A stretch of DNA of 35,574 bases from Candidatus Sediminicultor quintus (lineage in GTDB: Bacteria > Atribacterota > Phoenicimicrobiia > Phoenicimicrobiales > Phoenicimicrobiaceae): contig MEYH01000002.1 of assembly GCA_001773955.1 (NCBI GenBank), positions 1 to 35,574 of the forward strand, in the 5' to 3' direction. Both the position numbers and the translations under genes were made by a program. The first letter of the stretch is position 1; every line of letters starts with the position of its first letter. The notes under the pieces are model-generated. The model ran no database searches and was not told the origin of the DNA. It saw only the letters and a program-made list of their open reading frames with translations. This document shows positions 24,844 to 31,073 of this stretch, piece by piece.

Positions 24844-24857
24844 ATTTTTAATAAAAA

Positions 24858-24956
24858 TGAGAGTGCACCTAGGGTTCCGTTCAAATGAAGTCAGGACCGA
24901 GCGGTGCAAAGCATATTGTTTGCTACACCTTAAGGACAAAAGCCTAAAGGATAGGT
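24858..24956 (+). promoter_or_regulatory. ykkC-family riboswitch (guanidine-I or a ykkC-2 subtype)
   Basis: The conserved ykkC blocks occur in order: CCTAGGGTTCCG (24869-24879), a small hairpin TTCA-AA-TGAA, AGGACCGAG (24893-24901), a longer hairpin with GCAAA/TTTGC and flanking GGT/ACC (24903-24929), and GGACAAAAGCC (24934-24944). The bases ACCTA (24867-24871) and TAGGT (24952-24956) can close the P1 helix. The family is clear from GGGTTCCG plus GGACAAAAGCC. The ligand (guanidine, ppGpp, PRPP or a nucleoside diphosphate) depends on details I cannot judge by eye. GGACAAAAGCC and CCGAG favour the guanidine type, but the downstream gene is not a usual guanidine gene. Confidence 0.8.
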
Positions 24957-24996
24957 TTCATTTAATCATTTGTGATTTACTATCCTTTAGGCTTTT
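24938..24996 (+). terminator. Riboswitch expression-platform terminator
   Basis: A perfect 17-bp stem joins AAAAGCCTAAAGGATAG (24938-24954) to its complement at 24980-24996, with a 25-base loop and a U-rich end. The 5' arm includes the conserved AAAAGCC of the aptamer and the 3' strand of P1, so aptamer folding and terminator folding exclude each other. Ligand binding should therefore allow read-through (an ON switch). Confidence 0.8.
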
Positions 24997-25072
24997 ATAT
25001 TTAGGGGGGGGTGATAAGAAAGTATCTGAATTTATTTTAAAATTTTTTATTATATATAAAAAAAAGGAGGTA

Positions 25073-26608
25073 ATGATGAAAAAAATTTTAAAAAAATATT
25101 TGATTCTTTTCCTAACGACATTTTTATTAGTGAGTATTTATGTTTTTTCGGTAAATGCACAAGGGGTAATATCCCCGGAAAAAGATACTGCCTATCAGGC
25201 GGTGGAAAGAAATGCCAGTGAAGTCGGTAAAATTGGAGACGCCATCTTTAATTTTGCAGAGTTAGGAATGCAGGAATTTGAAAGCAATGATTTATGTGCT
25301 CGACTTTTAGAGGAATGGGGATTCAAAGTGGAAAAAGGTATTTCTGGTTTTCCAACTGCTTTAATGGCTACCTATGGTTCGGGAAAACCTGTCATTGCTT
25401 TGCATTTTGAATTTGATGCTCTTCCGGGAACCTCTCAACAAGCAGGAGTGATAGAGAGAAAACCGGTAGTAGAAGGAGCTCCCGGGCATGCTGAAGGGCA
25501 TAATACCAATGCTGCCGTCGTAATGGGAGCTGCTTTTGGGATAAAAGAAGCCATAGAAAAGTATAATTTAAAAGGAACAATTAAAGTATTTACTGCGCCT
25601 GCAGAAGAAAAAGGCATTCCTCGACCTTATTTTGTACGTGATGGGTATTTTAAAGATGTTGATGCTGCTTTTCATGCTCACGTAGGAAATGATTTATCTA
25701 CCAGTTATGGAGAAAGACAATATGCTGTTATTACTTCAGATTTTCTCTTTTATTGAAATACCGCTCATGCTGCGGTTGCTCCGTGGACTGGAGTAAGTGC
25801 AGTCGATGCTGCAAAATTAATGGATCTTGGTTGGGATGTATTAAGGGAACATTTACCTACAACGCAAAGAAGCCACTCAGTATTTACCGAAGGTGGAATA
25901 CAACCCAATGTAGTTCCTGATTTTGCCAGAATTTCCTGGATTTTCCGTGAATCTAATTATGAAAAAGTATATGATTTACATGAAAAAGCTAAAAAAGTAG
26001 CCGAAGGCGCTGCTTTAATGACTGGATGCACCTGGGAAGAAGAGGTTGTTTCAGCTATTTGGCCTACTCGGGATAACCAGACTATTGCCGAAGTAGTTCA
26101 GGCAAATATTGAATTAGTTGGTGTACCACAATGGACAGAAGAAGAGCAAAAATTTGCTAAAGAGGTACAAAGATCAGTGGGTGCAAAAGAAACTGGATTA
26201 ACTACCAAAATTACTCCTTTAGCGGAGGCAAAACAATCTACTTCTGCAAATGATTCCGGTGATATTACCTGGATGGTACCTCATGGCCGGATTACCTTCC
26301 CTGCAAATGTTAGTGGTATACCTGGTCATCATTGGGCTGCAGCCATTGTACCTGCAACTTCCATTGCCCATAAAGCTGAAGTTGCCGGAGCAAAGGTTTT
26401 AGCCGGTGCAGTAGTTGACTTACTTACCCAGCCGGCAATTCTAGAAAAAGCAAAAGAAACCTTCAAAAAAGAAGTTGGAGAAACCAAACATCAAACTTTA
26501 CTACCACTTGATCAAAAACCTCCAATACAGTATAACGTTGAGATGATGGCTAAATATCGTGAGTTGATGAAACCGTATTATTTGAAAGAAACCATTCAAT
26601 TTAAATAG
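25073..26608 (+). pseudogene. Secreted AbgB-like M20 amidohydrolase interrupted by a TGA
   Basis: The frame encodes about 511 codons of an M20-family amidohydrolase close to the AbgB (p-aminobenzoyl-glutamate hydrolase) branch, with an N-terminal signal peptide (KKYLILFLTTFLLVSIYVFSVNAQ). Metal-site blocks are visible: LHFEFDALPG, PGHAEGHN, PAEEKG and the later IPGHHWAAA. A TGA at 25754-25756 breaks it within a block that normally reads F-x-G-x-x-AHAA; here FLFY-stop-NTAHAAVAP. GGA to TGA explains it. Both sides keep the same frame and good similarity. TGA is an ordinary stop elsewhere in the window (nagA, nagB, tldD), so recoding is unlikely. ATG 25073, after AGGAGG, is the start. Its riboswitch and promoter are intact, so the break is recent or a sequence error. 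Confidence 0.8.
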
Positions 26609-27620: not shown

Positions 27621-27899
27621 ATGAATACTTATTTTATGTTTGGAAAATATTCCGCTGAAGCTATCAAGGGGGTAAGTGCTGAGCGCACTAAAAAAGCCAA
27701 TGATATTATTTTGAAACTTGGCGGTAAAATTATTGCTCAATATGCGCTGCTGGGGGATAGGGATCTGGTTTTTATTGTGAATTTACCGGGTGTAGAAGAG
27801 GTATTTAAGGCTTCTGCCGGTTTACATAAGCTGACTGGTATTTCCTTTTCTTCTGTCCCCGCTATAACTATAGAAAAATTCGATAAAATTCTAACCTAA
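27621..27899 (+). CDS. GYD-domain protein
   Basis: This 92-residue cytoplasmic protein is of the GYD family, named after a Gly-Tyr-Asp motif that here reads ALLGDRDLVFIVNLPG. The N-terminal strand YFMFGKYSAEAIKGVSAERTKKA and the end SVPAITIEKFDKIL also fit the family's ferredoxin-like fold. Its biochemical function is unknown to me. ATG 27621 follows AAAGGAGG closely. A 124-base gap separates it from tusA; it may be the first gene of the sulfur-transfer operon or an independent unit. Confidence 0.75.
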   Translation: MNTYFMFGKYSAEAIKGVSAERTKKANDIILKLGGKIIAQYALLGDRDLVFIVNLPGVEEVFKASAGLHKLTGISFSSVPAITIEKFDKILT

Positions 27900-28023: not shown

Positions 28024-28245
28024 ATGTCAAAAATAAAAGTTAACTGCTGCGGAGAGACTTGTCCGATTCCTTTGATAGAAACCAGAAAGGCAATTCGTAA
28101 AGCTTCTCCCGGAGATATTATTGAAGTAAGAGGCACTCACCCGGCATCTAAAAAAGAAATACCCATGGCGGTAAAGGCCTTGGGTTTAAAACTGGTTGAT
28201 GTGAAAGAAGAGGGAGGGGAATGGACAATTATCATTCAAAAATAG
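28024..28245 (+). CDS. tusA: TusA-family sulfur carrier protein
   Basis: This 73-residue TusA/SirA-like protein carries the CPxP motif with its persulfide-bearing cysteine, Cys13 in CGETCPIPLIETRKAI. The rest follows the family's two-layer fold, ending in EGGEWTIIIQK. TusA proteins accept sulfane sulfur from desulfurases or DsrE-type proteins and hand it on for tRNA thiolation, molybdenum cofactor or sulfur oxidation/reduction. Two extra cysteines (8 and 9) near the N-terminus are less usual. AGGAGG precedes the start, and the DsrE-like gene follows after 13 bases, so the two surely work together. Confidence 0.9.
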   Translation: MSKIKVNCCGETCPIPLIETRKAIRKASPGDIIEVRGTHPASKKEIPMAVKALGLKLVDVKEEGGEWTIIIQK

Positions 28246-28258
28246 GAGGACTCAAAAG

Positions 28259-28678
28259 GTGGCAGAGAAATTAACCATTGTGGTTCATAGCGGAGATATG
28301 GATAAGATTTACAGTACCTTGATTATTGCGAATGGCGCTCTTTCCATGGGCATGGAAGCCTCTCTATATTTTACTTTTTGGGGCTTGCAACGGCTGCAAA
28401 AAGGAGGCCTGGAAAAAGGATCTCTATCAAAGATGCACCTGCTGGGTATAGGAAAATCGATGATGAAGCAGCGCATGAATAAAGCCAATGTATCATCACT
28501 GGAGCGGTTGATGCAAGATTTCAAGGAATTGGGCGGAAAGATTATTGCCTGTGAGATGACCATGGAAATCATGGGGATAAAAAAAGAAGATTTAAGAGAA
28601 GATTTGATTACTGAATACGGAGCGGTAGGCACTTATATTCAGGAAGCAAGAGAATCTTCCGTTAATCTTTTCATTTAA
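28259..28678 (+). CDS. DsrE/DsrF-like sulfur-transfer protein
   Basis: This 139-residue protein belongs to the DsrE2-like (DsrE/DsrF/DrsH) group. The N-terminus TIVVHSGDMDKIYSTLIIANGA, the FTFWGLQRLQKGG segment and the C-terminal IIACEMTMEIMGIKKEDL are typical; the cysteine in ACEMTME (about residue 99) is the likely persulfide carrier. Family members pass sulfur between TusA and other partners, often as oligomers. GTG 28259 is chosen because AGGAGG (28244-28249) overlaps the tusA stop and lies 9 bases upstream. The NifS-like gene follows after 12 bases. Confidence 0.88.
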   Translation: MAEKLTIVVHSGDMDKIYSTLIIANGALSMGMEASLYFTFWGLQRLQKGGLEKGSLSKMHLLGIGKSMMKQRMNKANVSSLERLMQDFKELGGKIIACEMTMEIMGIKKEDLREDLITEYGAVGTYIQEARESSVNLFI

Positions 28679-28690
28679 GGAGAGATATTT

Positions 28691-29860
28691 ATGTTTGATG
28701 AAAAAATGATTTATCTAGATAATGCTTCTGCCACCCGGCTGGATGAGCGCGTTTTAGAGGCCATGCGACCCTATTTTTTTGATACCTATGCAGTAGCTAC
28801 TTCGGAGTTCGGGTATTCTCAAGGAATAGAAGCCAGGGAAGCATTGCAGAAGGCCCGCGAAACAATTGCCTCAAGGCTTAATGCGGGTCCCGAGGAATTT
28901 GTTTTTACTTCCGGAAGCACCGAATCCAGCAATATGGCCATTAAGGGTGTGATGATGGCACTTCAAAAGCAAAATAAAAATCACCTGATTGTTTCCAAAA
29001 TAGAAGACTTTCCGATACTGTATAGTGCAAAAAACCTGGAAAAACAGGGAATAAAAGTGACCTACTTAGAGGTAGATAAATACGGCTTTGTTGATTTAGA
29101 ACAGCTTAAAGGTTCGATATCGAAAGATACTGCCCTGATATCCATTCAGCATGCCAATCAAGAAATCGGGACCGTTCAAAACATTGAAGCCATAAGCCAA
29201 ATTTGTAAAGAGAAGAAGATATTATTTCATACCGATGCGACGCATACTTTTACAAGACTACCCATCGATGTAAGTAAGATACCGGTTGATTTGATTTCAG
29301 TCGCTGCTCATACCCTCCATGGTCCCAAAGGGATTGGCGGCCTTTATATTCGTAAAGGTACGCCTTTAACCAAATGGATGGATGGAGGCTTTCAAGAATT
29401 TAACCGAAGAGCAGGTTTGGAAAATATTCCCGGTGCCATCGGGTTTGCGAAAGCGGTTGAATTGGTCACTGCCCAGGAGAATGAGCAATTGATTTCTCTC
29501 AGGGACCATTTGATCAGTCATATTTTAGCAGAAATTTCCCAAACTACTTTAAATGGCCATCCTGAAAGGAGAACACCTCAAAATGCGAATATTACCTTTC
29601 ATTTTATAGAAGGAGAATCCATTACCCTGCATTTGGATATGCACGGTTTTGCGGTAAGCACCGGTTCGGCTTGCTTTAGCCGTTCACTGGAGGCCAGCCA
29701 TGTTATTTTAGGTATCGGCGGAGACCACGAAAGGGCACACGGCTCCATTCGTTTTACCCTGGGACGGTATAATAATCTGAAGGAAATAGACAAATTAATA
29801 GAGACGCTAAAAGAAATCATTAGCGAATTAAGAGAAATCAGTCCTTTGGGCAAAGATTAA
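28691..29860 (+). CDS. NifS/IscS-like protein without the PLP lysine
   Basis: This 389-residue protein is full length for the NifS/IscS class of cysteine desulfurases, starting YLDNASATRLDERV. Compared with E. coli IscS, the internal aldimine lysine (Lys206) is Thr208 (AAHTLHGPKG), His104 is Asp106 (KIEDFPIL), Asn155 is Gln157 (HANQEIGT), Gln183 is His185 (HTDATHTF) and Ser203 is Ala205. Asp182 (IscS Asp180), the catalytic Cys328 (STGSACFSRSLEASHV) and the GSIRFTLGR arginine are retained. It should not make an internal aldimine, so normal desulfuration is improbable. Keeping the sulfur cysteine beside TusA, DsrE and IscU genes suggests a persulfide relay or scaffold partner. The frame is intact and in tight operon spacing, so it does not look decayed. 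Confidence 0.85.
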   Translation: MFDEKMIYLDNASATRLDERVLEAMRPYFFDTYAVATSEFGYSQGIEAREALQKARETIASRLNAGPEEFVFTSGSTESSNMAIKGVMMALQKQNKNHLIVSKIEDFPILYSAKNLEKQGIKVTYLEVDKYGFVDLEQLKGSISKDTALISIQHANQEIGTVQNIEAISQICKEKKILFHTDATHTFTRLPIDVSKIPVDLISVAAHTLHGPKGIGGLYIRKGTPLTKWMDGGFQEFNRRAGLENIPGAIGFAKAVELVTAQENEQLISLRDHLISHILAEISQTTLNGHPERRTPQNANITFHFIEGESITLHLDMHGFAVSTGSACFSRSLEASHVILGIGGDHERAHGSIRFTLGRYNNLKEIDKLIETLKEIISELREISPLGKD

Positions 29861-29876: not shown

Positions 29877-30512
29877 ATGGAATTTCCCTATAATGAAAAA
29901 GTATTGGAACATTTTCGACACCCTCGTAATGTCGGAAAAATTGAAGATGCAGATGGAAAAGCCATGGAAGGAAGTCCTGCCTGTGGAGATATGGTATCGG
30001 TTCAAATTAAGGTGGATGAAAAGACCAAGCGAATTCAGGATATCAAATTCGAATCCTACGGCTGTGCTTCCAATATCGCCACCGGTTCGATTATTACCGA
30101 ATTGGCCAAAGGAAAGACTTTGGAGGAAGCAAAAAAAATCAGCTGGAAACAGGCATCAGATGAATTGGGTGGCCTTCCTGCCATAAAGGCACACTGTTCT
30201 GTATTGGCGGTTGAAGGTTTACGTTCAGCCATCAGAAATTACGAGGAAAAACACAGTCTGGTAACAGATAAAACCCCCACCACCATCGAAACAATCGAGA
30301 AAAGATTGAGGAAAGTCATGAATCCCTTAAGCGGTCTCGATTTGGTGGGCACCAAACTCATAAAAAAAATAGAACTAAAAGAAGGGGAAGTTAAAATAGA
30401 TGTTGACCTGCCGGAAAATCATCAATTTGCCAACTCAATCAAGGAAGAGATAAGGGAAAAAGTTGAATCTTTACATGATATTAAAAAAGTATCGATGACC
30501 TTTAGCGGATAA
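29877..30512 (+). CDS. IscU-type Fe-S scaffold fused to a MIP18/DUF59-like domain
   Basis: Residues 1-130 are an IscU/NifU-N scaffold with all ligands: Cys36 and Asp38 (GSPACGDMV), Cys63 (SYGCASNIATGS) and His106-Cys107 (IKAHCSVLAVEGL), matching E. coli Cys37, Asp39, Cys63, His105 and Cys106. From about residue 140 a second domain follows, IEKRLRKVMNPLSGLDLVG... with IKKIELKEGEVKIDVDLP and ESLHDIKKVSMTFSG. This is the pattern of MIP18/DUF59 domains found in Fe-S assembly proteins and at the N-terminus of Mrp/ApbC. It lacks the NifU CxxC domain. It would assemble and pass on Fe-S clusters in the cytoplasm. AGGAGG precedes ATG 29877; the NifS-like gene ends 16 bases upstream. Confidence 0.85.
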   Translation: MEFPYNEKVLEHFRHPRNVGKIEDADGKAMEGSPACGDMVSVQIKVDEKTKRIQDIKFESYGCASNIATGSIITELAKGKTLEEAKKISWKQASDELGGLPAIKAHCSVLAVEGLRSAIRNYEEKHSLVTDKTPTTIETIEKRLRKVMNPLSGLDLVGTKLIKKIELKEGEVKIDVDLPENHQFANSIKEEIREKVESLHDIKKVSMTFSG

Positions 30513-30555: not shown

Positions 30556-30851
30556 CTAATATTCCACAGACTGAAGGGCTTTAGCCGCTTTATCTAACTG
30601 AGCCAGTTTAATTAAGCAGGATATTCGAATTCTCGAGGTGTTAATGGTTTCCATATGAATACCTGACCGGGATAATGCCCGGAACATTCTTAAAGCAATA
30701 CCGGCTTCTTTGGCTATACCGTCATCAACGATGGAAACCTTTGCTAAATTGCAATCAGTATTAATTTGTTGGACCCCAATTTTCTCTGCTATTTCTTTGG
30801 TAATTTTTAAAGAAGGCAAGAAATCATCTTCCGTCACAATAAAAGAAACCG
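30556..30851 (-). pseudogene. C-terminal ACT-domain fragment of aspartate kinase
   Basis: On the minus strand the frame reads ATVSFIVTEDDF, then CNLAKVSIVDDGIAKEAGIALRMF and GIHMETINTSRIRISCLI, the tandem ACT region that binds lysine or threonine in aspartokinase (LysC). Only about the last 100 residues exist; the whole catalytic kinase domain is absent. Similarity stops sharply near 30851, where an alcohol dehydrogenase fragment begins on the opposite strand. It is therefore a truncated remnant rather than a gene, although a GTG at 30837 could start a stand-alone ACT protein. Confidence 0.75.
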
Positions 30852-31073
30852 TTGCCCATTCCGGGGAAAGGTGAAATTCTGGTTAAGGTTATAGCTTGCG
30901 GTATTTGCCATACGGAGTTGGATGAAATTGAGGGTCGGCTACTGCCTCCGAAGCTTCCCATTATTTTGGGACATGAAATCGTCGGACAGGTAGGAAAAAC
31001 GGGACTGGCTGCGGGATGTTATCGAAAGGGAGATCGCGTCATCAAAATTGACTTTATAGTTAAAATATATTAG
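30852..31073 (+). pseudogene. N-terminal fragment of a zinc alcohol dehydrogenase
   Basis: The frame begins abruptly with PIPGKGEILVKVIACGICHTEL and continues to LPIILGHEIVGQVGKTGLAAGCYRKGDRV, the catalytic-zinc region (Cys and HE) of medium-chain zinc alcohol dehydrogenases. The usual first 20 or so residues are missing, and the similarity is lost after GDRV, just before the structural zinc cysteines. A stop comes at 31071-31073. No ribosome site is present. It is a fragment left by rearrangement. Confidence 0.75.

Follow-up and report, generated by a model that had tools for sequence, protein, structure and literature searches.

What can a protein with the IscS fold do when the residue at the PLP-lysine position is no longer a lysine? 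The question is raised by one gene, termed here iscS*, in a 35,574-nucleotide stretch of DNA from Candidatus Sediminicultor quintus (Atribacterota; contig MEYH01000002.1), called the window below. It is part of a wider question, that of sulfur supply to IscU in anaerobes when IscS cannot use cysteine, which has stood since the Archaeoglobus fulgidus IscS structures.

The iscS* gene (28691..29860, + strand) translates uninterrupted to 389 aa, including AAHTLHGPKG, Cys328 and RFTLGR, and is third in a cassette of four ordered tusA, dsrE-like, iscS*, iscU. The first gene (28024..28245, +), preceded by an AGGAGG ribosome-binding site, encodes a TusA-family sulfur carrier of 73 aa whose CPxP motif holds Cys13 (Pfam TusA, 83 bits; cut-off 28.6). 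The second (28259..28678, +), starting 13 bp 3' of tusA, encodes a DsrE/DrsE_2-family sulfur carrier of 139 aa with Cys98 (Pfam DrsE_2, 126.6 bits; cut-off 25). The fourth (29877..30512, +) encodes a 211-aa protein, an IscU/NifU_N scaffold joined at its C-terminus to FeS_assembly_P (Pfam NifU_N 149 bits, FeS_assembly_P 45.8 bits), with C36, D38, C63, H106 and C107 as its predicted cluster ligands. Pfam thus confirms the three neighbors named in the first-pass annotation, all at gaps of 12-16 bp. A scan of the real sequence for promoters and terminators did no better than scans of shuffles. A GYD gene at 27621-27899 was considered as a further member and ruled out, since among the loci examined it is common only to the window and to a congeneric Atribacterota genome (G001). 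Elsewhere in the window, an M20-type amidohydrolase spans two ORFs (24857-26608), its frame apparently broken, and directly 3' of iscU lie an aspartokinase ACT-domain fragment (minus strand) and an alcohol dehydrogenase N-terminal-domain fragment (30556-31073).

The iscS* product (P0001) is a full-length IscS-like protein of fold-type I (Pfam Aminotran_5, 231 bits); its AlphaFold2 model has a pLDDT of 92 and a TM of 0.93-0.95 to IscS/Nfs1. It nevertheless falls under all of the IscS/NifS NCBIfam equivalog cut-offs listed (TIGR03402, 453 vs 530.75; TIGR02006, 360 vs 643.2). Residue numbering was referred to E. coli IscS, its sequence confirmed against 1p3w. On this alignment the five substitutions originally claimed are all exact: H104 is replaced by D106, N155 by Q157, Q183 by H185, S203 by A205, and the PLP lysine K206 by T208 (codon ACC, 29312..29314, +). 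Kept are D182 (= D180), H207 (= H205), C328 and R354, so that the cysteine, aspartate and RFTLGR arginine said to be retained are indeed present. Cys328 (codon 29672..29674, +) sits in a loop reading VSTGSACFSR, predicted to be mobile and sulfur-carrying (residues 327-331 have low pLDDT).

Mutagenesis showed H104, D180, Q183, K206 and C328 to be required for the activity of E. coli IscS (PMC9978102); three of these five are replaced in iscS*, and desulfurase activity is therefore very unlikely. A residual, slow cysteine desulfurase working with non-covalent PLP could be imagined from E. coli K206A, which reacts at a very low rate (PMC9978102), but here the residues required in E. coli have been lost jointly, along with Asn155, implicated in substrate binding, and with His104, which stacks on PLP, among the losses; we consider such an enzyme very improbable.

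Is the missing lysine an accident of one sequence? The orthologue in G001 has 96% identity, the same residues and the same gene order; dN/dS between the two species is 0.086, and the codon for Thr208 is ACC in the window and ACT in G001. An isolated mutation or assembly error is ruled out by these three observations, and iscS* is under purifying selection. The same dN/dS, with the residues and gene order conserved in G001, upholds the earlier argument that an intact frame and compact operon speak against decay. A lysine-bearing paralogue in the same genome might be thought to free this copy to become a pseudogene, but with orthologues and operon kept in at least ten phyla, as well as the selection and the differing threonine codons just described, we give practically no credence to decay or misassembly.

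A scan of a genome collection, selected for a non-lysine codon at the AAHTLHGPKG-type motif position, yielded at least 117 loci; since it selected on that codon and its listing is incomplete, this is no count of lysine-less genes, and an unselected archaeal sample was also taken (see below). At least 70 of the scan loci are 57-96% identical to the window protein, and the complete ones nearly all carry a D-Q-H signature. These DQH proteins form one clade (SH-aLRT 98-99) spanning ten or more phyla of bacteria and archaea, with lineages in Chloroflexota, Bacillota, Methanosarcinaceae, Thermoplasmatota, Heimdallarchaeota, Actinomycetota, Thermodesulfobacteriota, Myxococcota, Caldifarciminota and Atribacterota. 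The first-pass annotation had called for a homologue alignment and allowed that lysine might be normal in homologues; the whole clade is lysine-less, and the rebuilt pocket is fixed across it.

Residue conservation was compared between 58 clade members and 57 lysine-type proteins. In the clade D106, Q153, Q157, D182, H185, R189 and H207 are conserved at 97-100% (Asp106 and His185 each in 57/58), with D106, Q157, D182, H185 and H207 fixed at that level; Cys328 is present in 58/58, and Phe329 (100%) and Gly344 are also fixed. Relative to the lysine-type proteins the clade has also lost Asn35, Thr243, the small side chain at position 75 (E. coli numbering) and Met151, which has become Gln. Lysine has thus been lost, and its loss fixed clade-wide, together with loss of His104, Gln183, Asn155, Asn35 and Thr243, which again makes a desulfurase very unlikely. 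As read from these alignments, iscS* is very likely without cysteine desulfurase activity; most of the contacts to PLP and substrate have been lost, yet the pocket is not decaying.

Such strong, family-specific conservation of pocket residues could mean that the pocket was rebuilt for other chemistry, binding a metal, another ligand or non-covalent PLP, in an enzyme with a different substrate. E. coli K206A keeps trace reactivity (PMC9978102), and A. fulgidus IscS, likewise without the lysine, is drawn with PLP bound in 4EB5 according to a figure legend (PMC9769115). Against this, residue 208 drifts within the clade (50 T, 5 L, 2 V and 1 P; n = 58), residue 76 varies among S, D, A, E and N, the Thr243 position has become V, L or I, and the operon offers only sulfur carriers and a scaffold as partners. 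We therefore hold a new enzymatic activity to be improbable, though less so than a residual desulfurase.

The usual DQH cassette is, nearly always, tusA-dsrE-iscS*-iscU with the FeS_assembly_P extension. Among the matches listed, in loci with sufficient flanks, tusA adjoins 41/49 DQH loci vs 0/51 lysine-type loci, and iscU adjoins 48/49 vs 46/51. The functional residues of the partners are kept as well: Cys13, Pro14 and Pro16 of TusA in 56/56 family operons, Cys98 of DsrE in 54/55, and the IscU positions C36/D38/C63/H106/C107 in 57/57. Gene order varies, with tusA-dsrE first or, in many Chloroflexota, last; the tusA/dsrE linkage has therefore been kept through rearrangement or rebuilt.

The archaeal phylum-wide sample, retrieved regardless of residue 206, gave 90 iscS loci that split into 37 lysine-type, 20 DQH-type and 33 Asn-Asp type, with no intermediate; Cys328 is present in all 90. 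The lysine-type loci all read H-N-Q-H-K, and none has tusA or dsrE. The DQH-type loci all have Thr, with tusA at 16, dsrE at 16 and iscU at 20, while the Asn-Asp type has tusA at 29, dsrE at 22 and iscU at 32 of its 33. A chance neighborhood is ruled out by the operon counts in the global listing and in this unselected sample. The search proposed at the outset, for the variant beside tusA, dsrE and iscU, thus found a general linkage, absent from the lysine-bearing iscS loci sampled, and we found no published description of a tusA-dsrE linkage of lysine-less iscS in the open-access literature.

Three further loci deserve record. In the window's genome (G000, contig C83; L001) a second TusA precedes a lysine-bearing group II desulfurase-like protein (GHKSLFGPPG), and adjacency of tusA to a desulfurase-like gene is therefore not confined to lysine-less forms. 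In Dehalococcoidales bin10 (L117) a canonical iscS-iscU pair lies within a few hundred bases of the lysine-less cassette, in convergent orientation. A lysine-bearing IscS branching beside the DQH clade (L021, in G050) is accompanied by a long IscU (223 aa), which suggests that the long IscU is older than the lysine loss.

The chief rival to a sulfur relay arises here. IscS* might have a structural or ligand role, docking IscU while Cys328 transiently ligates the nascent cluster; sulfur would come as free sulfide, and TusA/DsrE would supply a different acceptor or do some parallel job. The precedent is A. fulgidus IscS, which has Asp at the lysine position and no desulfurase activity (PMC7585200), and whose cysteine is a cluster ligand when IscS and IscU are in complex (PMC7585200; PMC9769115; Pagnier 2015); the proposal made for it is that this cysteine binds the cluster transiently and does not donate sulfur (PMC7585200; PMC9769115). 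Sulfide can feed E. coli IscU anaerobically without IscS (PMC13015791), and at four Methanococcoides-like loci iscS*-iscU is kept with tusA/dsrE not nearby. What this role leaves unexplained is why tusA and/or dsrE should lie beside lysine-less iscS, in Archaeoglobus too, and never beside the lysine-type loci sampled. We judge it rather unlikely, but a serious contender.

Lysine-less IscS proteins also occur outside the DQH clade. The DQH and Asp types are two separate clades (support 98 each), and a test of a single DQH + Asp clade gave p 0.0009 without related lysine-less rows. Once six such rows were included, a common lysine-less superclade had an AU p of 0.33, so that one origin for both clades is not rejected. 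With the Arg type added, one shared origin for all three types is likewise not rejected (p 0.24), and we therefore claim no convergence for them. The Arg type is found in acid-mine-associated bacteria, Nitrospirota and Verrucomicrobia, with tusA in 9/15 loci with adequate flanks among the matches listed. In acid-mine-associated loci (L035/L052, L066, L145, L169) an Arg-type IscS is followed by iscU and tusA; Verrucomicrobial Arg-type homologues (L107, L109, L144, L147, L166 and others) have iscU/tusA not nearby. The Leu/Met type (Rokubacteria, Leptospirillum-like Nitrospirota) is significantly separate for its Leu-type members (p 0.007) and lies in isc operons with hscB-hscA, with an Rrf2 regulator and iscA where seen, and no tusA. 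Rokubacterial L054 and L095 and the Leptospirillum-like L057 and L101, with Leu at the PLP-lysine position, represent a separate loss, without tusA/dsrE.

What else do the hosts have for making clusters? The window's genome (1.95 Mb, 94% complete) carries, in addition, a canonical iscS-iscU pair with the lysine on contig C109, and most iscS*-bearing genomes likewise hold a lysine-bearing IscS; iscS* may therefore be specialized rather than the main route. In G001 (90% complete) we found no IscS or IscU beyond iscS* and its single IscU, and SufB/SufD were found in neither Atribacterota genome, while present in all 14 control genomes. G001 is an incomplete draft with congeners that have canonical iscSU, and its iscS*-only state is therefore only suggestive. 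Within the phylum the lysine-less gene occurs in 2 of the 50 genomes searched, those of the window and G001, so iscS* was probably acquired by transfer in Atribacterota.

Taking the residues and the neighborhood together, we lean toward a sulfur relay, with somewhat better than an even chance: the iscS* clade has lost desulfurase chemistry and is an IscU partner that receives sulfane sulfur via TusA/DsrE on Cys328. IscS* would be the IscU-docking, persulfide-bearing member of an ISC module fed by inorganic sulfur. Sulfide, polysulfide, thiosulfate acting through rhodanese, or some other donor of persulfide might supply the sulfane sulfur; TusA and the DsrE-like carrier would bring it to Cys328 and load it there, the mobile loop would pass it to iron-loaded IscU, and the FeS_assembly_P domain at the IscU C-terminus may aid cluster handling. 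In E. coli sulfur flows from IscS to TusA, so the reversed direction in this relay is an assumption; both the direction of flow and the primary sulfur source are what we infer. In vitro, sulfide persulfurates the DsrE of A. vinosum (PMC3397948).

The first-pass interpretation, that of a PLP-independent persulfide route to IscU, gains from the desulfurase loss, with Lys, His104, Gln183 and Asn155 replaced clade-wide, and from the generality of the tusA/dsrE/iscU linkage, and is thereby partly supported; an inactive lysine-less IscS was already known, and the PLP drawn in 4EB5 in spite of its missing lysine calls for caution in taking iscS* to be PLP-free. In the broadest reading, anaerobes would have a general ISC pathway independent of cysteine, running from TusA/DsrE to a repurposed PLP-free IscS whose sole chemical job is persulfide delivery to IscU; this we hold more tentatively, as somewhat short of an even prospect. 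If true, it would cover A. fulgidus IscS, Methanosarcina IscS1 and the Atribacterota gene alike. The tusA/dsrE linkage, absent from every lysine-bearing iscS locus sampled, points to a specific answer, one open to testing in culturable Methanosarcina, Acetobacterium and Archaeoglobus, and many anaerobe genes annotated as cysteine desulfurase probably are not.

Lysine-less IscS has precedents in A. fulgidus and M. acetivorans; the clade size, the rebuilt pocket and, above all, the tusA/dsrE linkage appear undescribed in the open-access literature. A. fulgidus IscS (4eb5, 4hvk, 4r5f) resembles iscS* in its IscS fold, missing PLP lysine, Cys loop and IscU partner. Both of its iscS copies (G207, query matched at 100%) lie beside dsrE and iscU, one also beside tusA, and the linkage therefore takes in the only case studied by biochemistry. 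It differs in having Asn-Asp for His205-Lys206 and Q183A, with His104 and Asn155 kept, and falls in a separate clade; at these signature sites of the Asp clade the window protein has His207-Thr208 and His185. Its IscU has no C-terminal domain, whereas that of the window has FeS_assembly_P.

M. acetivorans IscS1, flagged as lysine-less (PMC7585200), is also similar: by the description of MA0808, it too has no lysine and an STGSACFS loop, with a 24.2-kDa IscU1 (MA0807), and Methanosarcina-type DQH loci read tusA-dsrE-iscS*-iscU. MA0808 was reported in inclusion bodies, and its neighbors were described as of unknown function.

E. coli IscS and human NFS1 share with iscS* the fold (at the TM given above), an IscU partner, Cys328, Asp180 and His205; Lys206, His104, Asn155, Gln183 and others are replaced in iscS*, and tusA is not adjacent in the lysine-type loci sampled. 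The minimal ISC system (MIS), defined with a cysteine desulfurase (PMC12192291), is like the cassette a two-gene IscS/IscU core in anaerobes, but it has no carriers; the cassette, its scaffold present, is missing the catalytic lysine and has two sulfur carriers adjacent. Tus/Dsr relays, finally, resemble the cassette in carrying persulfide on cysteines of TusA and DsrE; the cassette differs in being linked to IscU, and in a proposed sulfur flow that would run toward IscS* rather than away from it.
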